Part shown: positions 4,603 through 18,543 of the stretch, in pieces
Position numbering within the stretch: position 1 is the first letter of the stretch
Layout of the letters: each line of letters opens with the position of its first letter
Source: a virus
Reading direction: 5' to 3' (one strand)
Virus record (IMG/VR): IMGVR_UViG_3300049595_004353
Coordinates: 1-35,328 of that record
Length of the DNA: 35,328 bases
Position numbers and translations under genes: made by a program
The notes under the pieces: generated by a model
Told to the model about the DNA's origin: nothing
What the model saw: only the letters and a program-made list of their open reading frames with translations
Database searches by the model: none

Positions 4603-5077
4603 ACACCCTCTTTACTGCATCCATTAAAGCAATAGCGTGAAATTTCTGCCATATACGGATGCGCTTAGTCATTGGTTTACATTTACGTACGTTACCTGCT
4701 GGTATATCCACTATCTTAGAAAACGACACAGCAGAGGACAAGTACACCGCCAGGGGTTCGTTCAAGTCTACTTGACAATGCTGTGCTGCGTCTAACCAGA
4801 CACGCAACACCTTGTGACCGTTTATTAGCAGCAAGTGGGAATTGCTAGCGGCTGCCCACAATACGGTACCATAGCTGCCATAACGTTTTTGAAAAGAAGC
4901 GACATCACGATGGTGCCAGCGTAAAGGAAGTCGCCCGTCACCGGGCAGTTGCTCAAGGATAGTAGAAAGGACATGATCCGATCTTCGACCCTGGTTAACA
5001 TAACCGGTGCGGGCATATTTATACTCTTCAGATATCTCTAGATCAACGGTTGTCGCCACTGCCCTGCAGTGTGCCAC
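4556..5077 (-). CDS. hypothetical protein, basic, unknown function
   Basis: A 173-residue frame with no recognised family. It contains KRYGSYGTVLWAAASNSHLL and a basic segment RKCKPMTKRIRIWQKFHAIA, and has no membrane helix or signal peptide. The start is uncertain: the GTG at 5077 has a weak AAGG, and a second GTG at 5059 has AGGG close by. Either choice overlaps the end of the MazG-like gene. It continues the same transcript, and without it there would be a gap of about 440 bases, which supports it being a real gene. Confidence 0.6.
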   Translation of the reverse strand: MAHCRAVATTVDLEISEEYKYARTGYVNQGRRSDHVLSTILEQLPGDGRLPLRWHHRDVASFQKRYGSYGTVLWAAASNSHLLLINGHKVLRVWLDAAQHCQVDLNEPLAVYLSSAVSFSKIVDIPAGNVRKCKPMTKRIRIWQKFHAIALMDAVKRVYGLDKPRVLVRQLWT

Positions 5078-5372
5078 GAGCCTTGCGAGAGCGCAACTTT
5101 TCTATATTTCCTTCAGCAACCTCAGCCATAGAAAATCCTAGTTCTGAGCTAAGACGGGCAACGTACCATAAGCAGTCGCCTAGCTCCTTTTTGAGCGCCG
5201 CTCTCGTTTCTTCGTCTAATACTCCGGCTTTGTCACGCAACACCTTTTTGATTTTCTCTGCGACTTCTCCCGCTTCACCACAAAGCCCAAGTGCAGGATA
5301 CACGAAGTTTGATCCTACGTTGGGATAAACTGCTGTCGTACTAACGGCGTCTTGATAGTCTGTGAAGTCCAT
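5043..5372 (-). CDS. MazG-like nucleotide pyrophosphohydrolase
   Basis: This 109-residue protein carries the all-alpha NTP pyrophosphohydrolase signature: GLCGEAGEVAEKIKK (about 29-43) followed by KKELGDCLWYVARL (about 61-74). The ExxE and ExxD acidic residues bind magnesium and hydrolyse NTPs or dNTPs to monophosphates. In phages such enzymes are thought to clean the nucleotide pool or lower the alarmone level. Length matches the single-domain MazG/RS21-C6 group. The start has a strong AAGGGAGA ribosome site. It follows the triplicated glycine-repeat genes. Confidence 0.85.
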   Translation of the reverse strand: MDFTDYQDAVSTTAVYPNVGSNFVYPALGLCGEAGEVAEKIKKVLRDKAGVLDEETRAALKKELGDCLWYVARLSSELGFSMAEVAEGNIEKLRSRKARGTLQGSGDNR

Positions 5373-5385
5373 ATATTAGTCTCCC

Positions 5386-5826
5386 TTACGTATAAATGTC
5401 GTTTCTAAGCTCTAAGATACCTAAAATACTCTCATACTCAAGAGCAGTATTACAGTTGAGTAGTATGTTAGCTAACTCTAAGGTTTCGTTGGAGAGTGGG
5501 AGAAACAAGTGCTTTAGAGCATTGGGGATTCCCATCTCCTCCAATATTGCTTCACCGTCACCGTCACCGTGACCGTTACCGTTACCGTAACCGTTACCGT
5601 CACCGTCACCTTTACCGTCACCGTCACCGTGACCGTTACCGTCACCGTCACCGTCACCGTCACCGTCACCGTCACCGTGACCGTTACCGTCACCGTCACC
5701 TTCACCGTCACCGTGACCGTTACCGTCACCGTAACCGTTACCACCGTCACCGTTACCGTTACCGTCACCGTGACCGTTACCGTTACCGTAACCGTTACCG
5801 TCACCGTTACCTTCTAGCGTAGACAT
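5386..5826 (-). CDS. Gly-X dipeptide-repeat protein, paralogue 3 of 3
   Basis: The 146-residue protein begins MSTLEG and then alternates glycine with Asn, Asp, Tyr, His and a few Lys/Glu for about 85 residues (for example GDGDGDGDGDGNGHGDGDG). It ends in a folded-looking domain, EAILEEMGIPNALKHLFLPL, then LSNETLELANILLNC and YESILGILELR, likely three short helices. The repeats are encoded by GGTNAC hexamers. The start ATG overlaps the previous paralogue by 13 bases and uses AGGAGA inside that gene as its ribosome site. Its own C-terminus (NDIYT) differs from the other two. No family was recognised. The Asp-rich stretches could bind calcium but lack the GGxGxDxLx order of RTX repeats. Confidence 0.75.
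   Translation of the reverse strand: MSTLEGNGDGNGYGNGNGHGDGNGNGDGGNGYGDGNGHGDGEGDGDGNGHGDGDGDGDGDGDGNGHGDGDGKGDGDGNGYGNGNGHGDGDGEAILEEMGIPNALKHLFLPLSNETLELANILLNCNTALEYESILGILELRNDIYT
5553..5812. repeat. GGTNAC hexamer array 1
   Basis: On the plus strand this is a run of ACCGTN units (minus strand GGTNAC), about 43 units, with N varying among all four bases. One half-unit (GGT GGT) disturbs the dipeptide rhythm in the first third of the gene. It encodes the Gly-X part of paralogue 3 and stays open in several other frames, which gives long false frames of Thr-Val and Arg-His. Confidence 0.9.
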
Positions 5827-5894
5827 ACATCTCTCCTAAGCTCTAGAATACCTAGGATACTCTCATACTCAAGAGAGGTATTACAATTGAGTAG
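5811..5894. repeat. 84-bp perfect direct repeat, copy 1
   Basis: Identical to 6224-6307, offset 413 bases. It spans the start of one glycine-repeat gene and the end of the gene upstream. High similarity continues for about another 95 bases, to the start of the hexamer array. This marks a recent tandem duplication. Confidence 0.85.
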
Positions 5895-6239
5895 TATGTT
5901 AGCTAGCTCTAAGGTTTCGTTGGAGAGTGGGAGAAACAAATACTTTAGAGCATTGGGGATTCCCATCTCCTCCAATATTGCTTCTACTTCACCACCGGTA
6001 CCGTTGCCGTTACTGAAGTCGTTACCGTAGCTATCAGTGTAGCCACAACCGCTACTCATACCGTAACCGTTACCGGTACCGTTACCGTAACCGTTACCGT
6101 TACCGTTACCGTCACCGTCACCTTCACCGTCACCGTGACCGTTACCGTTACCGTAACCGTAACCGTAACCGTTACCGGTACCGTTACCGTCACCGTGACC
6201 GTTACCTTTACCTTTACCTTTACCTTCTAGCGTAGACAT
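5814..6239 (-). CDS. Gly-X dipeptide-repeat protein, paralogue 2 of 3
   Basis: The 141-residue protein begins MSTLEGKGKGKGNG and has a Gly-[N/D/Y/T/H/E] region of about 80 residues. This is interrupted near residues 61-78 by non-repeat sequence (MSSGCGYTDSYGNDFSNG). The same C-terminal domain as its neighbours follows (EAILEEMGIPNALKYLFLPL ... ELRRDVCLR), with only a few substitutions. It overlaps both adjacent paralogues by 13 bases. Its last codons contain AGGAGAG, the ribosome site for paralogue 3. The function is unknown. Confidence 0.75.
   Translation of the reverse strand: MSTLEGKGKGKGNGHGDGNGTGNGYGYGYGNGNGHGDGEGDGDGNGNGNGYGNGTGNGYGMSSGCGYTDSYGNDFSNGNGTGGEVEAILEEMGIPNALKYLFLPLSNETLELANILLNCNTSLEYESILGILELRRDVCLR
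5990..6222. repeat. GGTNAC hexamer array 2, interrupted
   Basis: About 35 hexamer-equivalents of ACCGTN on the plus strand, broken by non-repeat sequence between about 6006 and 6057. It also contains several GGTACC variants and, at the start of the gene, four GGTAAA units giving Gly-Lys. The array encodes the central part of paralogue 2. Confidence 0.85.
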
Positions 6240-6307
6240 ACATCTCTCCTAAGCTCTAGAATACCTAGGATACTCTCATACTCAAGAGAGGTATTACAAT
6301 TGAGTAG
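6224..6307. repeat. 84-bp perfect direct repeat, copy 2
   Basis: Identical to 5811-5894; see that entry. The first mismatch is at 6308 (G against T at 5895). Confidence 0.85.
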
Positions 6308-6685
6308 GGTGTTAGCTAGCTCTAAGCTTTCGTTGGAGAGTGGGAGAAACAAGTGCTTTAGAGCATTGGGGATTCCCATCTCCTCCAATATTGCTTCACC
6401 GTTACCGTCACCGTCACCGTTACCGTAACCGTCACCGTAACCGTCACCGTCACCGTCACCGTTACCGGTACCGTAACCGTAACCGGTACCGTCACCGTCA
6501 CCGTCACCGTTACCGTCACCGTGACCGTTACCGTAACCTTCACCTTTGCCGTGACCGTTACCGTAACCGTAACCGTTACCGTAACCGTTACCGTTACCGT
6601 AACCGTCACCGTTACCGGCACCGTAACTATTGCCTAGTTCACGCCCAGTAACGGCAATGTGCGCGCAAGGATTAAGTACGGTCAC
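6227..6685 (-). CDS. Gly-X dipeptide-repeat protein, paralogue 1 of 3
   Basis: The 152-residue protein is the first of the tandem set in transcription order. Its N-terminus differs from the other two (MTVLNPCAHIAVTGRELGNS). About 80 residues of alternating Gly with N/D/Y/H/K/T follow, then the shared C-terminal domain with small changes (NESLELANTLLNC). The start is a GTG sharing four bases (GTGA) with the stop of the VWA gene, so translation is probably coupled to it. Its end, ELRRDVCLR, is identical to paralogue 2 and carries the AGGAGA ribosome site for it. Confidence 0.7.
   Translation of the reverse strand: MTVLNPCAHIAVTGRELGNSYGAGNGDGYGNGNGYGNGYGYGNGHGKGEGYGNGHGDGNGDGDGDGTGYGYGTGNGDGDGDGYGDGYGNGDGDGNGEAILEEMGIPNALKHLFLPLSNESLELANTLLNCNTSLEYESILGILELRRDVCLR
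6397..6632. repeat. GGTNAC hexamer array 3
   Basis: About 39 ACCGTN hexamers on the plus strand encode the Gly-X segment of paralogue 1. Variation is almost confined to the fourth base of the minus-strand unit GGTNAC, giving Asn, Asp, Tyr or His; rare units give Thr, Lys or Glu. Confidence 0.9.
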
Positions 6686-8370
6686 TTAAGTCTTATTCCT
6701 TTTCTAAGTAAGCGGTCAAGCACTTTTAACGGTTCTTCGGTAAAGTCTTCCAATCGTTGGATTACTACGCTGTTAGGATAGTACTGTCTAACGTCGGTAC
6801 TCTGTATACCAAAAGCGACGATCTCAATGCCGTACTCAGAAGCAGCGCTTACTACGTCCAGCAAGTGTTGCTGACATCGGCCCACATGTCCGTGCCCAGG
6901 ATAGGGCATACCATCATTGAACACAAAAAGTATCTTGCGTTTCTCTTTGCGTAACAACAATCGACGAATACCGTGCTTCACAGATTCTGCGTCTAGAGTG
7001 TTACTTCTGATGTTAGTAGACGCCTCCGATAGACGCAAGGCTCCTTTTTCCCAGGGCTCATTAAAATCTCTGTAGTATCTAATCCACAGACTATTCCAAC
7101 GTGCGTAGGGCACACAGTCAGCTGGAATGCTGGTAGGTTGGTCTGTGGAATATGCGTACGCAGCGAATGGAATACGCAAAGAGTCCAACACATCGCCCAG
7201 CACTATAGCTGCGGTTCCGGCTAAGTCCAGCTTCCTGCCAACCATGGACCCGGAATGGTCGATAGCCAGGCACACAGCTGTGTCTATGTGTAGCCTGTTA
7301 GCTAGCTGCTTGTACACTGCGTTGTCGGTACCTAATACAGACCTGTATAGTTTTCTAGAATCAACTTTGCCTTCTTCTTTGCTGCCTACCCAACGCCGTC
7401 TTGCTTGTGCACGCAAAGAGTTAACTAACCTAGTTCGCAGTACATTTGTTACGGCTTTATGCGTGTCTCTTATCCGTTGAAGTTTTTGTCCATTCAAAGC
7501 AACTGCAACGTCAGGAAAAGGTTTTACAGTGTCATCTGCTGTAGAGAACACTATGTACGTTTTGTCACTGTCTGCATCGTGCTTATATCCTGTTGCGTTT
7601 TTTCCGCTCTTGGATACAAGAGCAGCTGCTTCCTGTCCTAGTAGTTCACCTAACTGGTCTTGGGATACTGGTTGCGAAGAAGAAGGCGTACCTCCCGCTT
7701 CTATGGTTGCTGTTTGTTTGGATTTCTGCTTCTCTCTCTTTTTTCTGTCTTCCTCTTCCTCTTCTGCGTACTCTTTTAGCACTTCGAACATGCGAAACCC
7801 TGCCTCAATTGCTAAATCGGTAGATACTATGTTAGCTACAGGGCCTACTGCATCTACGCATTTATCAACCAACAGCTTTGTCTGCTCGTCTACTGTGTGC
7901 ATCCAGAAATCTGTGTATTTGCCATAGGCAACAAAATTCCCGTAAGCAGTACAAGCCCGCATAAATTGATTAATGTTTTGCCAATTTTGGCGTATTTTTG
8001 GCACCATCCAGTCGTTGCTAGCCGCTAGGTTTGTGACGGAGCCGGGAAACAAGCGACACACCGCAGCCTCCACCCGATTGTCTTCTATTACATTGATGCA
8101 ATGAAATTGTGTTGCAGTGGGAGTTGGTGTGCGCTCTTTTATTGCCTTGAAATCAGTGAATAATACGTGGGCGGTTTCATGGTCCAAGAACCCGTGCACG
8201 GCAGCCAGAAGCTCGCTAGGAGCGTCACTAGGGAGCGTAGGCAAGTAGATGGTATTGCCGTCAGTCTTGCACTCTCCCGATTTCCACACAACGCGGATAC
8301 CGAATTGCAGGGAGAGAAGGCGCGCAGTGCGCTCGATAGATGATTCGGCTAACCGAACATTACTTCTCAT
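6682..8370 (-). CDS. CobT-like VWA-domain protein with HExxH motif
   Basis: The 562-residue protein resembles phage proteins labelled cobaltochelatase CobT. Residues 59-72 hold GFLDHETAHVLF (H64, E65, H68), an HExxH metal site, with EDNRVE at about 96-101 as a possible further ligand. A Lys/Glu-rich linker spans 200-235. The C-terminal von Willebrand A domain has a complete MIDAS: D371-x-S373-x-S375 (DHSGSM), T458 and D486 (FNDGMP). Real CobT works with the AAA+ subunit CobS in cobalt chelation; phage pairs lack the rest of that pathway and more likely act as a MoxR/VWA-type remodelling machine. The CobS-like partner is encoded at 9205-10275. The start at 8370 has GGAAG upstream. Confidence 0.8.
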   Translation of the reverse strand: MRSNVRLAESSIERTARLLSLQFGIRVVWKSGECKTDGNTIYLPTLPSDAPSELLAAVHGFLDHETAHVLFTDFKAIKERTPTPTATQFHCINVIEDNRVEAAVCRLFPGSVTNLAASNDWMVPKIRQNWQNINQFMRACTAYGNFVAYGKYTDFWMHTVDEQTKLLVDKCVDAVGPVANIVSTDLAIEAGFRMFEVLKEYAEEEEEDRKKREKQKSKQTATIEAGGTPSSSQPVSQDQLGELLGQEAAALVSKSGKNATGYKHDADSDKTYIVFSTADDTVKPFPDVAVALNGQKLQRIRDTHKAVTNVLRTRLVNSLRAQARRRWVGSKEEGKVDSRKLYRSVLGTDNAVYKQLANRLHIDTAVCLAIDHSGSMVGRKLDLAGTAAIVLGDVLDSLRIPFAAYAYSTDQPTSIPADCVPYARWNSLWIRYYRDFNEPWEKGALRLSEASTNIRSNTLDAESVKHGIRRLLLRKEKRKILFVFNDGMPYPGHGHVGRCQQHLLDVVSAASEYGIEIVAFGIQSTDVRQYYPNSVVIQRLEDFTEEPLKVLDRLLRKGIRLK

Positions 8371-8371
8371 A

Positions 8372-8399
8372 TTTTCTTCCTAAAATAAACTGCTATACT
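8372..8399 (+). promoter_or_regulatory. extended -10 promoter of the metalloprotease gene
   Basis: TGCTATACT (8391-8399) is an extended -10 element (TG, one base, then TATACT with five of six consensus bases). Only a weak TTTTCT lies in the -35 region, as is common for extended -10 promoters. Transcription would start about 7 bases on, at or next to the ATG at 8406. Confidence 0.6.
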
Positions 8400-8405
8400 T
8401 ATTGC

Positions 8406-8987
8406 ATGCGTAGTATACGCTTGTTAGTGGTGGTAGCAGCTACAGTCTTGATAGGCATAGTTAGCTGCGCGCCCAGAACGGTGTGGTTACCGCGTGCAAA
8501 CGGAGTATGGTACAATTCCAGCGGAAAATTAGTACACTGGAATCGTAACAGGTTTCCGTTAGTGATCGCATTAGACAGCTCCATAAGCTTTGTAGATTTT
8601 CTACACATGAATATTGCTATGGAGCATTGGAACACGCAAGTAGGGGCGGATGTCTTTGTTTTTGACGCCGAACGTCCAGCAGACATATACTTCGAAAAGA
8701 CAGACTTACCGGACGTAAACGAAGAAGTACAGCTACAAGGTCTTGCCAGCCTGCAGGAATTCGATGGAGAAGTCATAAACTGCCGCATACGCCTAGACGT
8801 GGCCACAAGTGTGGAAGACGCTACCGTAGTGTTGGTGCACGAGCTTGGTCACTGCTTGGGCTTAACGCACGACTCATGGCCAGGATCTGTGATGTTTCCG
8901 CACGCTGCGGAGTCTGGAAGACAGATATTGCAGGATGACTTAGAGTTTGTGCGATGGCAGAGGGTAGGTATACTTAACCAGAAATAA
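8406..8987 (+). CDS. matrixin-like zinc metalloprotease lipoprotein
   Basis: This is the only plus-strand gene in the window. The 193-residue protein starts with MRSIRLLVVVAATVLIGIVS and a lipobox ending at C21, so it is probably exported and lipid-anchored. The catalytic site is HELGHCLGLTHD (H145, E146, H149, H155), the HExxHxxGxxH(D) zinc signature of metzincins. SVMFP just after it provides the Met-turn methionine (M163). Short length and a missing propeptide suit bacterial or archaeal matrixin-like proteins. Upstream in-frame ATGs (8340) would lie before the promoter and encode non-signal sequence, so 8406 is chosen. No Shine-Dalgarno sequence precedes it. It may modify the host surface or exclude other phages; that is inference. 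Confidence 0.85.
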   Translation: MRSIRLLVVVAATVLIGIVSCAPRTVWLPRANGVWYNSSGKLVHWNRNRFPLVIALDSSISFVDFLHMNIAMEHWNTQVGADVFVFDAERPADIYFEKTDLPDVNEEVQLQGLASLQEFDGEVINCRIRLDVATSVEDATVVLVHELGHCLGLTHDSWPGSVMFPHAAESGRQILQDDLEFVRWQRVGILNQK

Positions 8988-9019: not shown

Positions 9020-9208
9020 TTACCAACCAACCAAGTGTTTGTCACTCTCGTATTCGGTAAGCAAGCTCCACAAGAGCCTGGCTAGGCTTTCATCTGCGTG
9101 CATATAGCTACTGTAGAAGCACACCCAACATGAATTTTGGCTAATTACACCGGCCTTCTCTAGGTAAAGTGTGTGGCCGAATAGCCGTAGTCTGTAGGGA
9201 GCAGTCAT
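9020..9208 (-). CDS. small hypothetical protein (62 residues)
   Basis: The frame starts with an ATG overlapping the stop of the AAA+ gene (ATGA) and has GGGAG upstream, and it ends just before the terminator, so it looks like a genuine last gene of the transcript. The sequence (MTAPYRLRLFGHTLYLEKAG ... SLARLLWSLLTEYESD) shows two cysteines (CWVC) and a helical end but no known family. Confidence 0.55.
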   Translation of the reverse strand: MTAPYRLRLFGHTLYLEKAGVISQNSCWVCFYSSYMHADESLARLLWSLLTEYESDKHLVGW

Positions 9209-10275
9209 GTACGCTTGCTCCCTAGTAAGTACTTCTTGTCGTCTTTCTCAGGAAGCTTAAAGTGGCGCTGAATTAGGTTGGCGACAGCCAAAGCGTCGCT
9301 AGGCGGAAGCTTGTCTAGGAAGCTGTACCTAGCCGACTTCATCGGGAAAGGTACGCGAGTAAGTTTTTCAAGCCAATTAATTCCATCGCGAGTAGTAAGG
9401 GGCACAGAAACAGTGCCTGCCTTGAACGCTTCTCGCACAGCAGATAGAACCTTGACTACGGGAGAAATAAAAGGCTGCACATGTACAGCGGGGAACATGC
9501 TCTCCAGCACCTTTACTTCGCTTGCAGGGGAAATATAGTCAATGGCTATTACTGTCTTCCATCTATTCAAGAAAGAAAAATTCTGTACGTTAGTACCCGC
9601 TACGTAGAGACCTGAATCATCTCCCATACCTGTTGTGTTTGCGGTTCCCACTATGCAATTCTGTGGATGAAGTTCAAAAATCTGGTTTGTTTCATGCATG
9701 AGGAAACGCAAGTCTTCGCTAACAGCTCTCTGTAAAACGAAAGCAGTTTCTGGCGGGCACGCGTCTATCTCGTCGAACAGCACTATGGTTCCGGGCTCTG
9801 TAAACGCCAGGGGCACTAAACCATAACGGAACAGCATGTTGCCGTTTGCTATTTTCCAGTCACCAAGCAAGTCACTACGGGACAGATGGCCGTCGAAATT
9901 GATTTGAACTACGTTGTAATTCAGGCGAGCTGCTACTTGGTTTACCAGGGCTGTTTTACCAGTTCCTGATTGACCAACTAGATACGTAGTGTCTCTTGAC
10001 GTTATTGCCTGAAGTAGCTGTACTAGCTCTTCTTTTGGAAAGACATAGTTTGGATTCAAACTAGGAGTCAGAACTCCAGGAGTTGCAAAGCCAGTAACCG
10101 CGATATCTAAGTAAACTGTATTTCCCTTCGAGTCTTTTACAGACTCTCCCTGGCTCATCTTTACGCCAGTATCAATCTTAAACGTATCTCTTACGGAGAA
10201 TGACTTAGTCTCTCTATTAGCTCTGTGTGGAACAACAGAAATAGCAGCATGAGAGAGCTGTGTGTGGATGTCCAT
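9205..10275 (-). CDS. CobS/MoxR-like AAA+ ATPase
   Basis: The 356-residue protein has one AAA+ module. Walker A is GQSGTGKT (101-108), Walker B is IVLFDEID (164-171), sensor 1 is IVGTANT (208-214), and R238 in FLNRWKT is a candidate arginine finger. The order and the LLGDWK segment after the second strand match the MoxR/CobS group. These ATPases act as hexamers with VWA-domain partners; the CobT-like gene at 6682-8370 is the obvious one. I chose the ATG at 10275, which overlaps the upstream stop by one base (TAATG). A GTG at 10290 would add five residues. The protein target is unknown. Confidence 0.85.
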   Translation of the reverse strand: MDIHTQLSHAAISVVPHRANRETKSFSVRDTFKIDTGVKMSQGESVKDSKGNTVYLDIAVTGFATPGVLTPSLNPNYVFPKEELVQLLQAITSRDTTYLVGQSGTGKTALVNQVAARLNYNVVQINFDGHLSRSDLLGDWKIANGNMLFRYGLVPLAFTEPGTIVLFDEIDACPPETAFVLQRAVSEDLRFLMHETNQIFELHPQNCIVGTANTTGMGDDSGLYVAGTNVQNFSFLNRWKTVIAIDYISPASEVKVLESMFPAVHVQPFISPVVKVLSAVREAFKAGTVSVPLTTRDGINWLEKLTRVPFPMKSARYSFLDKLPPSDALAVANLIQRHFKLPEKDDKKYLLGSKRT

Positions 10276-10718
10276 TATAGTATGTCCCACTCCGTTTGTT
10301 CAACTATCGTCGGGGTCTCTAGGGTCTTGCGAGTTCGTACGTATTGGGTTTGTCCGTTGAGGAAAGACAGCTCGGTACCTGTAGGCACAGCTACGAGTGC
10401 ACCTGACAAGACTATAGGTAAAGTGTCACGCTCGTCAAGGTGGCGAGAGTGCACCTCCACATTATGTTCACGCAACAGCGTGCGAATACGACTAACTGCA
10501 GCTTTTATGCTGGGCATCTCTAAGTCGTACTCCAGGAGTTTAACGTTCGAAGGCAGTATCCAACCAGCAGGAAAGTTGTACTTGTTACCGTGAGACAGTA
10601 GTACAACCAACTTGTTTGCCTTTGCCAGGGAATCTACTACTTCGTGATGCTTTTCATTCTCAGGAAGTACGGTTGGGTCCTTGACAAACACGATGCGGTT
10701 TAAAACGTGATCTGCCAT
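10275..10718 (-). CDS. hypothetical protein between primase and AAA+ ATPase
   Basis: A 147-residue protein of unknown family beginning MADHVLNRIVFVKDPTVLPE. The ATG at 10718 is preferred because GGAG lies eight bases upstream; an in-frame ATG at 10754 is deeper inside the primase gene. The middle (NKLVVLLSHGNKYNFPAGWI, then IKAAVSRIRTLLREHN) suggests alternating strands and helices. No catalytic motif was recognised. It overlaps the primase by 19 bases, so the genes are probably co-translated. Confidence 0.65.
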   Translation of the reverse strand: MADHVLNRIVFVKDPTVLPENEKHHEVVDSLAKANKLVVLLSHGNKYNFPAGWILPSNVKLLEYDLEMPSIKAAVSRIRTLLREHNVEVHSRHLDERDTLPIVLSGALVAVPTGTELSFLNGQTQYVRTRKTLETPTIVEQTEWDIL

Positions 10719-14652: not shown

Positions 14653-15059
14653 CGCAGCGATACCTCTTCGGTAGTGCGATAATTTCTGTTGTGGCTACCG
14701 ATCGCTATTTGCGTAGGTCTGTACGGATTCTGAGGCTTTCCAGGAAAGTTTACTTTAGACAGCCTGCGGAGTCTAGACAACGCCAAATACGGAATGTCCA
14801 CCGGCAGGGGAGACGACACTGCCATGGCGTAGCGGTTCATTTCTTGAACCTCCACACTCAGAATGCCTTGTGTAACGTCGTTGTGAATAAGAAGACCAGT
14901 GAACTTGCTTAGGTCGTCCAGGCTATATCTAGCTGGTGTACTAGGTACATAACGAAAAGGCATGCCTGTAGCTGCGTTTCGGTCTTTTCGCAACGCAAAC
15001 CCCAACTTCATCCAGCCGAGAAGTTCATCTCCTGGGCGGAGGTCCGTTACTTTCAGCAT
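14643..15059 (-). CDS. hypothetical protein downstream of the UvsW-like helicase
   Basis: A 138-residue protein with no recognised domain; it begins MLKVTDLRPGDELLGWMKLG and ends TEEVSLRWT. It has mixed strand and helix character, Pro-rich stretches and no membrane segment. It overlaps the helicase by 35 bases with only a weak GGA-containing ribosome site, and the J-domain gene by 10. The tight packing supports a real gene in the replication transcript. Confidence 0.6.
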   Translation of the reverse strand: MLKVTDLRPGDELLGWMKLGFALRKDRNAATGMPFRYVPSTPARYSLDDLSKFTGLLIHNDVTQGILSVEVQEMNRYAMAVSSPLPVDIPYLALSRLRRLSKVNFPGKPQNPYRPTQIAIGSHNRNYRTTEEVSLRWT

Positions 15060-18000
15060 CTTGCGTCCAAATCTTTCTTACTAGTGCTACATCAGGCCCA
15101 CTCTGAATCAGAGGAAAACACTCTTCCTTCTTGTAGTCTTCCCAACGCTCCAAACTATGCTTGAGCAGGTAATCATTGGTGAAGTTGGCAAACTCTACTG
15201 CAATTAGTTTGCTGCCTCGCAAGCCTCTACCCAGGCGCTGCATGGTCTTGATCCGGCTCTTACGGGATCCGGCTAAAATGAGAGCATCAATTGTAGGCAC
15301 GTCCACGCCTTCATCAAGGATTGTACTTGCCACTAGTACTGGCAACTTTCGCTCACCGAAGTCTTTTAGCGCATTGGCACGAACTTCCGTAGCTTCTTCA
15401 CCATGGATAAACAAGTGCGGGATGAATACATCTCCAGTAGCTGTCCACAAAGCCTGGTCGATTGCTTTGCCATGCTCAATCTGCTCACACAGAATCAGCG
15501 TACTCAACCCAACCTCTTGAAAAACCTTTGTCCATTCAACGATGAGATTGAGTGCATTAGGATTGTCCACTACCCCTTGTTTGTAGGCAGACGCATACGC
15601 CAGTTTCTTGGGTAGAACAGGCGCGGTTATCTTCGAGAAGATAACATACGTTTTAGCGCTGATACCGTTCTCAACCAAGAACTTGTTAGGGATGTCCACA
15701 ATGACAGGACCAATTGTCGCAAGAAGGCGTAAGTTAGCGCCATCGGTACGGTCCATAGGAGTGCCACTAAGGCCGTACCTGTAGTTAGCAGGACATGCAG
15801 TACAAACATCATACCAGGTTTCACTACCTGCATGATGGCAGTTATGCGTGAGCAGTCCATTCGCAACAAACGTATGGTCTTCCTCTACTTCGAACTCTAC
15901 GGTGTTCAAGGACAGTCCTGTGTCAACTTTCGTAACTAGTACGGGACGAGCGTTTACACTACTGGCGATAGCGGTCACCTCTGAATCGAACACAGACGGA
16001 AGTCTGCCGTGTCTCTTAGAAGCCAACTGCTTTCTTGGCAAGAAGCCAGGGCACAAACTGGAAAACTCAGTTGTGGACACACTGGGGACTACCACTCTGT
16101 ATCCAGGATTCTGTTGTGACTTCTTAGGGCAGACTTGCAGTCTAGCGGCAATATTATTGTCCCGCAAAAATCGCTGTAGGGCAACCATCAACGCATAGCA
16201 AGTGGTTTGTATACCACAACGATTGCTCTTAAGGTCAACAAAGCCCTTAGCGTCGAACAACCCAGAAATATAAGACCGCATGTTAGGATGCAGAGGCAAA
16301 TGCTTATACTTGTTCTGCCGAACGCTAAAGCCCAAAGCAGCCAAGTCCAACAGGAAAGCATCTGAGGAAACGGTAAGTGTGTGACCACCTCGGGCATTTG
16401 TGGACACGCACGTTGAGGAATCTGGATATGCCTTAGTAAGCAAAGAGGGCACTACTGTTTCCCAGAACTCGAAGTCTTTCCTGTAGGAAAAGCGGACCTT
16501 GTTCGTGCTGTGCCAATGTCCACCACCAGCAAACAAGCCTGCCAAATATGCGGAAAGGCTGAAATCAGCCAAGGGCCTAGAGGGAGACATGCGTTCTAGC
16601 AGAACATCGTCAACACTAACGCTATCTGCGTAGATATAGGTAAGCTTGCCGTTACGAACAACGGCTATTGGGTGCTCCACAGAGCACAACAAAGAGAGCC
16701 CATCACTTGCGTGCAGTTTGACGCCCTCTCTTGTGTGGGTGGTAACTCGCGTGACCGGCTTCATTCCGGAATGAGTTACAACTACATCTCCTACCTTGAT
16801 ATCCTTGGCGTAGGAATACCCAGATTCCGTGGAAATCACAGAGTATTCGTCCACACATTCGTCCACGAAAAGAACTTCGCAACCCTTGAGAAGGTCCTGG
16901 CACGACTGTTGTTCAAAACGAGACTCAAGCGTGTCAACGGTGGCGATTGTAACCCAGGTTCCTGGATTCCAAACTCCATCTCCGACGATTCCAATTTCCT
17001 CTTCCGTTGCTCCCAAGCGCTTCATGAAGCGTGCACGGGACTGATGCAGGAGTTCCCTGGTGGTGACCATGAAAATAGTAGGCATTTCAAGATAGCGTGT
17101 AATTGCGCACGCCACCTCGGTGTTGTGTGTTACTGTGAAATCACCCAACAGGAATCTACCGTCTCCATCTAGAGTGAACCCCGCGTAGTCACCTACACCA
17201 AGCGGCTCAACGCGAAAACCAGTGTTCAGGCGATAAGGTTGTTTGCGCTTCTTAGCTTGCTTTCGAGGAAGACGCGTAGGGATCTTGTGTAGGTCGCCGT
17301 AAATGTGAAGCCTGTGGTAAGTGACACCGTTCACGACCTTCGGCTTCACATTCACTCGAAAGCCTAGCGAACGAGCAAGATCCCGAATACCCTCAGCGTA
17401 AGTAGCTCGTACTTGCGTGATCTCAAACCACTTAGAGTTCACCTCCAAGTGGCCGTCAGTATCCAACAAGCCTGCAAGAAACAGTAGGCGCACACGCTCA
17501 CTTCCGCGAAGACAAGACAGTGGCAGAGTGGAAGCATCTCCGCACACCCTACGCATTTCCGTGAGTAGAGGATTCGTCTCCCCACGAGGAGTAACAAGAG
17601 CATAGGTATCTGCTCGTCCTGAAGACTCGGATGCATACTTGATGAGATTCAACGACCAAGACTTGCAGGTGTCGGAAAGCAGGTCCACGATCTCTGAATC
17701 CATCATGGTAACTTGCACGCCCTGCTTAAGGTCCTTGCGCCCGTCTCCAAACCACACACCCAAGAAATACGGGTCAATCGAAGGATCCGGAATAGCCGGA
17801 TAGTTAACGCCCGTGCTGAACTGTTTCAACAGTCTGCGACGATTCGTAGACAACTTAAAGTACTCGGGAAGCTCAATATCTACAACTTCGTTGGCGTGCT
17901 TACCGGTACGTCTAGAGTCACGCAGTGTGAGAACGTGAACATCGTTGCAAATCCAGGGGTCACCTAGATTAGGTACAATCCTGTACATAGGCCCGGTGCC

Positions 18001-18543
18001 CGTACAGGTACTCTGAACGGCGCGCGGAAGCGAATCTGGACCCATCAACAGATTGCCCACGCGAATGTTCTTCGCGGCGGCTACACTCCCGTCGAACAGC
18101 ATCACTGGAGTGTCAGGATGCAAACACTTACCTGCGTTTGTAGCCATGCGAAGGACACCACGCTTGGCTTCAACTGCCTTCTTTGCGGCCTCCAGTTGGT
18201 ACGCGTACTTGCCATCCATTCGCACGCCCACAAGATCAAAGGATCCACTCCTGGGCTGTGGAGAAGTGCGATGATCGGTAACGATTACATTGGCTCCAGC
18301 TAGCTCGCACGCTTCTTTCACCAAGCTTAGCAGACCTGTGGGAAACGTCTCAGACGTAAGACGGAACAGGTGCTTACGTCCATCCCACACGCCCTTACGA
18401 TATGACTGGGAAAACTGCGCACCCTCTACTGGATACGAAGTGACCATACGTACAGCAGACTTTGGGTAGGGTCCGCTGATCTTGGAAGTGGGACCATACA
18501 CGTCGATGTGTACGTCTGCGGTCACTGACGACTCCTCACTCAT
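15025..18543 (-). CDS. uvsW: UvsW-like SF2 helicase carrying two inteins
   Basis: The 1172-residue precursor contains three extein parts: residues 1-139, 475-562 and 902-1172. Joined they make a 498-residue helicase of the size of T4 UvsW. Extein motifs are the Q-like AYQLEAAKKAV (114-124), motif I ATNAGK|TEVA, motif II VLFVDE|CHH (DECHH after splicing), motif III GLSGTPMDRT (about 924-933), and motifs V and VI (STILDEGVDVP and QRLGRGLR). It would act on branched DNA, R-loops and recombination intermediates, as UvsW does when converting origin-dependent to recombination-dependent replication. Both inteins sit inside ATPase motifs, so the precursor should be inactive until both are removed. 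It overlaps the upstream gene by eight bases (ATGAGTGA). Confidence 0.92.
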   Translation of the reverse strand: MSEESSVTADVHIDVYGPTSKISGPYPKSAVRMVTSYPVEGAQFSQSYRKGVWDGRKHLFRLTSETFPTGLLSLVKEACELAGANVIVTDHRTSPQPRSGSFDLVGVRMDGKYAYQLEAAKKAVEAKRGVLRMATNAGKCLHPDTPVMLFDGSVAAAKNIRVGNLLMGPDSLPRAVQSTCTGTGPMYRIVPNLGDPWICNDVHVLTLRDSRRTGKHANEVVDIELPEYFKLSTNRRRLLKQFSTGVNYPAIPDPSIDPYFLGVWFGDGRKDLKQGVQVTMMDSEIVDLLSDTCKSWSLNLIKYASESSGRADTYALVTPRGETNPLLTEMRRVCGDASTLPLSCLRGSERVRLLFLAGLLDTDGHLEVNSKWFEITQVRATYAEGIRDLARSLGFRVNVKPKVVNGVTYHRLHIYGDLHKIPTRLPRKQAKKRKQPYRLNTGFRVEPLGVGDYAGFTLDGDGRFLLGDFTVTHNTEVACAITRYLEMPTIFMVTTRELLHQSRARFMKRLGATEEEIGIVGDGVWNPGTWVTIATVDTLESRFEQQSCQDLLKGCEVLFVDECVDEYSVISTESGYSYAKDIKVGDVVVTHSGMKPVTRVTTHTREGVKLHASDGLSLLCSVEHPIAVVRNGKLTYIYADSVSVDDVLLERMSPSRPLADFSLSAYLAGLFAGGGHWHSTNKVRFSYRKDFEFWETVVPSLLTKAYPDSSTCVSTNARGGHTLTVSSDAFLLDLAALGFSVRQNKYKHLPLHPNMRSYISGLFDAKGFVDLKSNRCGIQTTCYALMVALQRFLRDNNIAARLQVCPKKSQQNPGYRVVVPSVSTTEFSSLCPGFLPRKQLASKRHGRLPSVFDSEVTAIASSVNARPVLVTKVDTGLSLNTVEFEVEEDHTFVANGLLTHNCHHAGSETWYDVCTACPANYRYGLSGTPMDRTDGANLRLLATIGPVIVDIPNKFLVENGISAKTYVIFSKITAPVLPKKLAYASAYKQGVVDNPNALNLIVEWTKVFQEVGLSTLILCEQIEHGKAIDQALWTATGDVFIPHLFIHGEEATEVRANALKDFGERKLPVLVASTILDEGVDVPTIDALILAGSRKSRIKTMQRLGRGLRGSKLIAVEFANFTNDYLLKHSLERWEDYKKEECFPLIQSGPDVALVRKIWTQDAESNGPPPRR
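15841..16857 (-). other. intein 2, in the DExH motif, with a degraded homing endonuclease
   Basis: Residues C563 to N901 of the helicase precursor (339 residues). It starts CVDEYSVISTESGYSYA with a later SVEHP block B histidine, and ends DHTFVANGLLTHN followed by Cys902, a standard class 1 layout (Cys1, His-Asn end, Cys +1). It splits DE|CHH. Two LAGLIDADG-like segments are visible, LAGLFAGGG (667-675) and ISGLFDAKG (759-767), but the catalytic acidic position is Gly674 and Lys766. Splicing residues look intact; DNA cleavage is probably lost. Confidence 0.9.
17122..18126 (-). other. intein 1, in the Walker A motif, with intact LAGLIDADG motifs
   Basis: Residues C140 to N474 of the helicase precursor (335 residues). 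It begins CLHPDTPVMLFDGSVAA, has NDVHVL as block B histidine, and ends FTLDGDGRFLLGDFTVTHN followed by Thr475, giving the canonical His-Asn end and Thr +1. It interrupts AGK|T of Walker A. The endonuclease motifs LGVWFGDG (261-268) and LAGLLDTDG (356-364) keep the acidic residues (D267, D363), so homing activity is plausible. Confidence 0.93.

Follow-up and report, generated by a model that had tools for sequence, protein, structure and literature searches.

Phage genes encoding Gly–X arrays with variable X residues and uniform synonymous sites, joined to a conserved helical domain

Insect and spider silks are built in part of Gly–X fibroin dipeptides. The repeats of spidroin genes are homogenised (PMC3933166), and silk is the nearest known kind of gene for repeat homogenisation to the phage arrays considered here: in both, a long Gly-rich repeat lies between short unique ends, is homogenised at the DNA level, and is present in several copies. 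We claim a likeness of repeat organisation, not homology, and the phage arrays differ from silk in being short (median 72 aa), acidic, and rich in Tyr, Asp, Ser and Asn, with diverse X residues and uniform synonymous bases.

Another system for comparison is provided by bacterial (GY)n tracts, many of which, found after ILND-like segments, we take by eye to be tails of Wzc-type tyrosine kinases. They have the (Gly–Tyr)n peptide in common with phage Gly–X chains, but are nearly pure in Tyr, use mixed synonymous codons and are apparently attached to a kinase, their codon signature being opposite to that of the phage arrays.

The DNA analysed here is a viral record of 35,328 nucleotides (IMG/VR IMGVR_UViG_3300049595_004353), taken whole and referred to below as the window. 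The following features of the window are relevant.

5043–5372, minus strand: MazG-like nucleotide pyrophosphohydrolase, downstream neighbour (PF03819, E 1.6e-13)
5386–5826, minus strand: Gly–X gene copy 1 (P0001), 146 aa; MSTLE, Gly–X array at about 5554–5811, C-terminal domain at 5389–5553
5814–6239, minus strand: Gly–X gene copy 2 (P0002), 141 aa; array at about 5985–6224 with a non-repeat interruption, domain at 5817–5984
5833–5837, minus strand: AGGAG ribosome-binding site for copy 1, within the last codons of copy 2; this layout recurs in relatives
6227–6685, minus strand: Gly–X gene copy 3 (P0003), 152 aa, GTG start; distinct N-terminus, array at about 6398–6634, domain at 6230–6397
6246–6250, minus strand: AGGAG ribosome-binding site for copy 2, within the last codons of copy 3
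6682–6685, minus strand: GTGA overlap of the copy 3 start and the stop of the CobT-like gene, seen in the sequence
6682–8370, minus strand: CobT-like VWA protein, upstream neighbour (PF11775, E 2.2e-18; PF06213, E 1.2e-10)
9205–10290, minus strand: CobS/MoxR-like AAA ATPase (PF07728, E 5.9e-15)

The three open reading frames are real protein genes. Each encodes a Gly–X stretch followed by a 55-residue domain (EAILEEMGIPNALK...GILELR), and the domains of copies 2 and 3 are 87–89% identical to that of copy 1. The initial annotation had described three tandem genes of strict Gly–X alternation with X being Asn, Asp, Tyr or His; the tandem genes and the shared domain are confirmed, but the regularity is less complete. 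The final third of the copy 2 array is interrupted by MSSGCGYTDSYGNDFS, where strict alternation is lost, one X is absent from copy 1 (Gly–Gly), copy 3 begins with VTVLNPCAHIAVTGREL instead of the MSTLE of the others, and Lys, Glu, Thr and Ala occur among the X residues as well. Consecutive copies overlap by 13 nt, both at the 3' end of copy 2 with the start of copy 1 and at the 3' end of copy 3 with the start of copy 2, the LRRDVCLR-stop end of one copy holding both AGGAG and the MSTLEG start of the next. The GTGA overlap suggests that translation of copy 3 may be coupled to that of the upstream CobT-like gene.

The neighbours had been proposed to be VWA chaperone-like and MazG-like, in agreement with the Pfam matches to CobT-like (PF11775/PF06213) and MazG (PF03819) families, and the CobS/MoxR-like ATPase is the probable partner of the CobT-like protein. 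As a clue to function this adjacency is only a lead, since in another phage carrying the same cassette (L249, below) the neighbours are different. Also in the window, the gene at 8340–8987 runs on the plus strand in the midst of minus-strand genes and encodes a Matrixin-like (M10) zinc metalloprotease whose N-terminus is signal-like. A helicase at 15025–18543 has matches to Hom_end and LAGLIDADG_3, domains of inteins or homing endonucleases, and seems to carry two inteins.

At the DNA level, the window arrays are runs of GGTNAC in which position 4 varies almost alone, with few exceptions. All 44 Gly codons of the copy 1 array are GGT and all its Asn, Asp, Tyr and His codons end in C, whereas in the rest of the window genes GGT accounts for 255 out of 761 Gly codons and NAC for about 63% of codons for these four amino acids; hence, the copy 1 array is not due to chance. 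The C-terminal domains of the same three genes lack the array-type codon bias. We define phage Gly–X array proteins as those with at least 12 Gly–X units, mixed X, and uniform third codon bases; by the codon table, copies 1 and 3 belong to this class, and copy 2 does so over its first two thirds.

Two scans of IMG/VR, one with six GGTNAC units (scan 1, at least 119 stretches) and one with a codon-neutral pattern (scan 2, at least 120 stretches), yielded, among the matches listed and after filtering for X diversity, at least 242 distinct mixed-X arrays of at least 12 units in at least 175 loci. The arrays are attached to many different N- and C-terminal sequences. Thus, the earlier statement that no phage family has this architecture is valid for the domain, which belongs to no known family, but in phages it is common for Gly–X arrays to be joined to other end domains. 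In the open-access papers searched, we found no literature on such arrays or on DUF6948, a domain discussed below, and within that literature phage Gly–X arrays seem to form a widespread, undescribed class.

As in the window, tandem genes whose ends are constant while their arrays vary occur in locus L167 (MGLKAFLKF...PNLTSAGATVVEE), where the ribosome-binding site of the next copy likewise sits in the tail of the previous one, and in L046, L110 and L123 (M...YPVG...TRTRRR); the end sequences of all these are unrelated to the 55-residue domain of the window. In five other loci (L106, L117, L118, L125, L242) the arrays are N-terminal, preceding a domain of about 150 residues (AHG.T..EA ... LTGSC..GR), and the L106 copy has no match in Pfam, PHROG or NCBIfam.

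The arrays combine uniform synonymous positions with diverse residues, a feature, along with the fixed synonymous positions in the window, absent from the initial annotation. Averaged over the at least 242 mixed-X arrays, within-array pair identity is 0.94 for the Gly third base and 0.97 for the X third base, but 0.31 for the X residue. Scan 2 without the X-diversity filter gave 122 mixed arrays with 0.92 and 0.96 for the Gly and X third bases, respectively, and only four homopolymeric arrays among the matches listed, so that the comparison within phages is thin; no correlation was seen over all scan-2 arrays (rho 0.06). This signature, uniform synonymous sites with near-random residues, reverses that of cellular Gly–Tyr tracts: for the 121 bacterial tracts listed, pair identity is 0.45 for the Gly third base, 0.59 for the X third base, and 0.89 for X. 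The bacterial genome scan, whose pattern favoured Tyr, listed at least 120 stretches, those listed being Gly–Tyr tracts, many in kinase-like tails, and not mixed arrays of the phage type. That the arrays mimic the Tyr-rich tail of BY-kinases, acting as decoy substrates that upset capsule control, would fit the many genome matches to the peptide pattern that by eye look like Wzc-type tails; given the few Tyr residues in the window arrays and the admixture of Asp and Ser in phage arrays generally, we regard it as very improbable.

Host codon preference was considered as a source of the uniformity and rejected: the array matches the preferred Gly codon of its contig in 65 out of 138 cases, and the preferred X third base in 84 out of 138, the preference being estimated roughly, on the basis of long open frames.

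The near restriction of variability to position 4 of GGTNAC in the window could also be read at the DNA level, as a coding GTNAC array that serves as a binding or recombination site. The fixed bases differ among phages, though, which argues against a common DNA motif: among the matches listed, GGT..C is fixed in 131 arrays (a count inflated by scan 1, the pattern of which required GGT..C), GGC..C in 81, GGC..T in 19, and GGT..T in six, and TCC units also occur. For the same reason the GTNAC palindrome is ruled out as a DNA-binding site. Moreover, the Gly–X frame is kept, and in the DUF6948 modules it starts inside the upstream gene. Such a DNA element is, therefore, in our opinion quite unlikely.

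The composition of X recurs from array to array. In the 213 array genes listed, mean X composition is 37% Tyr, 25% Asp, 17% Ser, and 12% Asn; Tyr makes up at least 10% of X in 97% of them and acidic residues at least 10% in 95%, while Lys and Arg together exceed 5% of X in only 5%. The length of the array region in these genes stays near 58–83 residues, the median being 72. The order of X is near random, with a mean lag-1 autocorrelation excess of 0.01, and a repeated substring longer than in shuffled sequences (p<0.05) was found in 28% of 138 arrays. In the tandem genes of L167, the sequence flanking the arrays is identical and the X order differs, with zero synonymous change in the arrays. 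The simplest reading of these patterns and of a toy model is that hexamer units are shuffled while selection keeps the mixture: a simple neutral simulation, in which blocks are duplicated or lost and point mutations accumulate, failed to reproduce 0.94 together with 0.31, an argument that presupposes simple turnover and one mutation rate for all positions of the hexamer. In this respect, composition may be a selected trait, as judged from the sequences.

These data bear on the possibility that the arrays are junk, that is, self-expanding in-frame hexamer repeats that are tolerated and ride on the domain. Synonymous uniformity and the block repeats in some arrays would be expected of such repeats, but neutral turnover should homogenise X along with the synonymous sites, the composition recurs in unrelated phages, the length stays within the above range, and the pairing with DUF6948 is conserved elsewhere, all of which makes this explanation improbable. 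We rate about equally low a chain binding Ca2+ or another metal in the manner of RTX or EF-hand-type Asp/Asn/Gly loops: Asp, Asn, and His do stand at alternate positions, and TrAA12 and Sdr-type regions are matched weakly, through low complexity, but the register of the RTX nonapeptide or of the 12-residue EF loop is absent, as is a hydrophobic position, the X order is near random, and the commonest X overall is Tyr rather than Asp.

Net charge of the arrays ranges from -6 to -20, as would suit an acidic mimic of DNA, or a decoy, sequestering DNA-binding proteins of the host, for instance those of restriction, and the accessory setting and mobile cassette would be compatible with this role. 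Against it, the copy 2 array is only mildly acidic and has Lys, many arrays elsewhere are Tyr-rich, and the DNA-mimic proteins known to us are folded; hence, we give it little credence.

The C-terminal domain and the array differ in their predicted structure. The domain alone is modelled by AlphaFold as four helices with pLDDT 90.8, whereas the Gly–X array is predicted to be disordered (pLDDT about 25), in line with the earlier description of a constant domain attached to a variable low-complexity chain. Among 11 distinct domain sequences, pN is 0.039, pS 0.198, and pN/pS 0.20, and thus the domain is a protein under purifying selection. It has no match in Pfam, PHROG or NCBIfam, and its best Foldseek match in PDB has E 2.5, the full model having none; the expectation that it falls outside well-known families, as far as these databases and PDB are concerned, was borne out. 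The full window protein matches nothing in Pfam beyond the low-complexity TrAA12. Two PHROGs of unknown function, 18306 and 10432, show low-complexity, compositional Gly–X matches to the window arrays, and do not match the C-terminal domain. The end of a zinc-finger-like protein in L007 (1241–2026; ...TLNEFLDGTQETKDSILAILELRKENS), with the tail SILAILELR, by eye resembles the domain end; as a relative of the domain it was rejected, the domain profile not having detected this tail.

The domain is encoded in five further IMG/VR contigs, and the profile search with the domain, as had been proposed, matched viral contigs only in these same five, with no distant relatives. Three of them represent the same phage species (98.9–99.8% identity where aligned); two of these three carry two copies of the gene, compared to three in the window, and the third ends inside the cassette. 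In one of them, L246, the first copy joins the copy 3 array (75 out of 76 codons) with the copy 2 domain (identical DNA), and from this hybrid it follows that the three copies of the window and the two of L246 differ by recombination within the cassette. The remaining two contigs, L249 and L250, come from an otherwise unrelated phage: BLASTN matches to the window are confined to the cassette, and strong protein matches are to frames within it, besides one match of 25% identity (3e-5). L249 carries at least seven copies of the cassette, dispersed over three places. Hence, the cassette, whose presence in an unrelated phage had not been noticed before, moves between phages and changes in copy number. 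In all cassette relatives the Gly–X frame is open, with neither the stop codons nor the frameshifts that had been named as evidence against a functional family.

Diversity of order could itself be the product, with a varied Gly–X repertoire serving to evade recognition or engage a range of partners, similarly to antigenic or anti-defence systems. Tandem multi-copy cassettes with constant ends and differing arrays are what such a repertoire would look like, as are horizontal sharing and the presence of two or more Gly–X genes in 24 out of 169 loci. However, most loci have a single copy and composition is conserved; besides, between 99%-identical phages, the array order differs by one changed codon out of 76–87, plus a two-codon insertion in one, so that change is not fast at that scale. 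We therefore consider this explanation unlikely, if with some chance of being right. The confinement of variation to X positions might also point to targeted mutagenesis of the X codon, by a diversity-generating retroelement or otherwise. No reverse transcriptase (RVT_1) was found in the 35 kb window record, which may be partial, the X codons (TAC, GAC, TCC, AAC, and few others) are unlike the outcome of adenine-specific template mutation, and shuffling of whole units between identical flanks is observed in L167; this origin is extremely improbable.

The reading we prefer, with a probability of about 0.5, is that of a disordered Gly–X chain, selected for composition and held by a folded end domain, that functions as a multivalent scaffold and evolves by hexamer shuffling and cassette recombination. 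Each gene would produce a disordered chain in which every second residue is Gly and the others are polar or aromatic (Asn, Asp, Tyr, and His in the window; Tyr, Asp, Ser, and Asn in most other phages), anchored by the small helical domain. What selection acts on would be the make-up of the chain, whatever its order, maintaining an acidic mixture with Tyr spaced along the chain in most phages; hexamer units would be shuffled and copied, so that third codon bases stay uniform within an array, and whole cassettes would duplicate, fuse, and pass among phages through recombination. In the infected cell, the domain may dock on one partner, while the chains make many weak contacts or space partners apart. 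The scaffold role is suggested by the composition and predicted disorder, and its sticker argument is weaker for the window, since its copies are poorer in Tyr than most arrays (3, 7, and 10 residues; only 3 among about 43 X in copy 1); the mild acidity of copy 2 also counts against the reading. A tether, a metal-binding surface or a condensate, as proposed in the initial annotation, would be alternative roles of the chain; for a condensate, the pertinent data are those on composition, and for silk-like fibres the predicted disorder of the array. The signature of the arrays offers a natural way to test if composition by itself can be what is selected in a disordered protein. A broader reading, which we hold tentatively and think rather doubtful, is that in phages of many hosts a random Gly copolymer, with Tyr, Asp, Ser or Asn as the other residue, is a functional object of a new class, with composition selected, order free, and recombination that reassorts X but leaves the codon frame uniform, and that, together with DUF6948 or end domains, it forms a phage-made intracellular material.

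In other phages, Gly–X arrays are linked to DUF6948 (PF22253), a connection not made in the initial annotation. A Pfam match to it was found in 19 out of 116 neighbour proteins from 38 Gly–X loci, and in 36 out of 50 Gly–X contigs (35 above the curated cut-off) compared to none out of 33 controls (Fisher p 2.5e-12), the latter being tract-bearing contigs of the same scans without a mixed array, some of them short, and not a random phage sample. In contigs that allowed both genes to be located, DUF6948 is on the same strand as the Gly–X gene in 35 out of 35 cases and directly upstream in 34, with a median gap of 51 bp; the single exception may be due to a circular contig cut between the two genes. 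At E 10, nothing in the window matches DUF6948, and the contigs of L005, L007, and L009 lack it as well; thus the window family is a separate setting, without DUF6948, of the same kind of array.

The linked arrays of Pectobacterium phage Ymer (WCD42787.1), Iodobacter phage PhiPLPE, and Vibrio phage IKEMa6-1 are of the same type as in the window, and that of PhiPLPE has the uniform-codon signature. As in the window, they are encoded by small accessory genes whose start overlaps the upstream gene: in these three phages, the start of the Gly–X gene falls within the DUF6948 gene or directly at its end. They differ from the window in that X is mostly Tyr, Asp or Ser, and in the lack of the window-type C-terminal helical domain. 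The pairing offers a practical way to approach function through cultured phages. Some members of the class are unannotated or called in the wrong frame. In PhiPLPE (L371), an unannotated Gly–X gene at about 1172–1410 lies directly behind the DUF6948 gene gp84; after it come a short inverted repeat of high GC content and a run of T. In Chlorobiaceae phage CV-1-33 (L372, 2843–3088), the annotated gene25 (QOE32032.1) reads MAMAMALAMA..., while the Gly–X frame, MDGINYGYGDG...GDV, which starts within the DUF6948 gene, is probably the genuine one.
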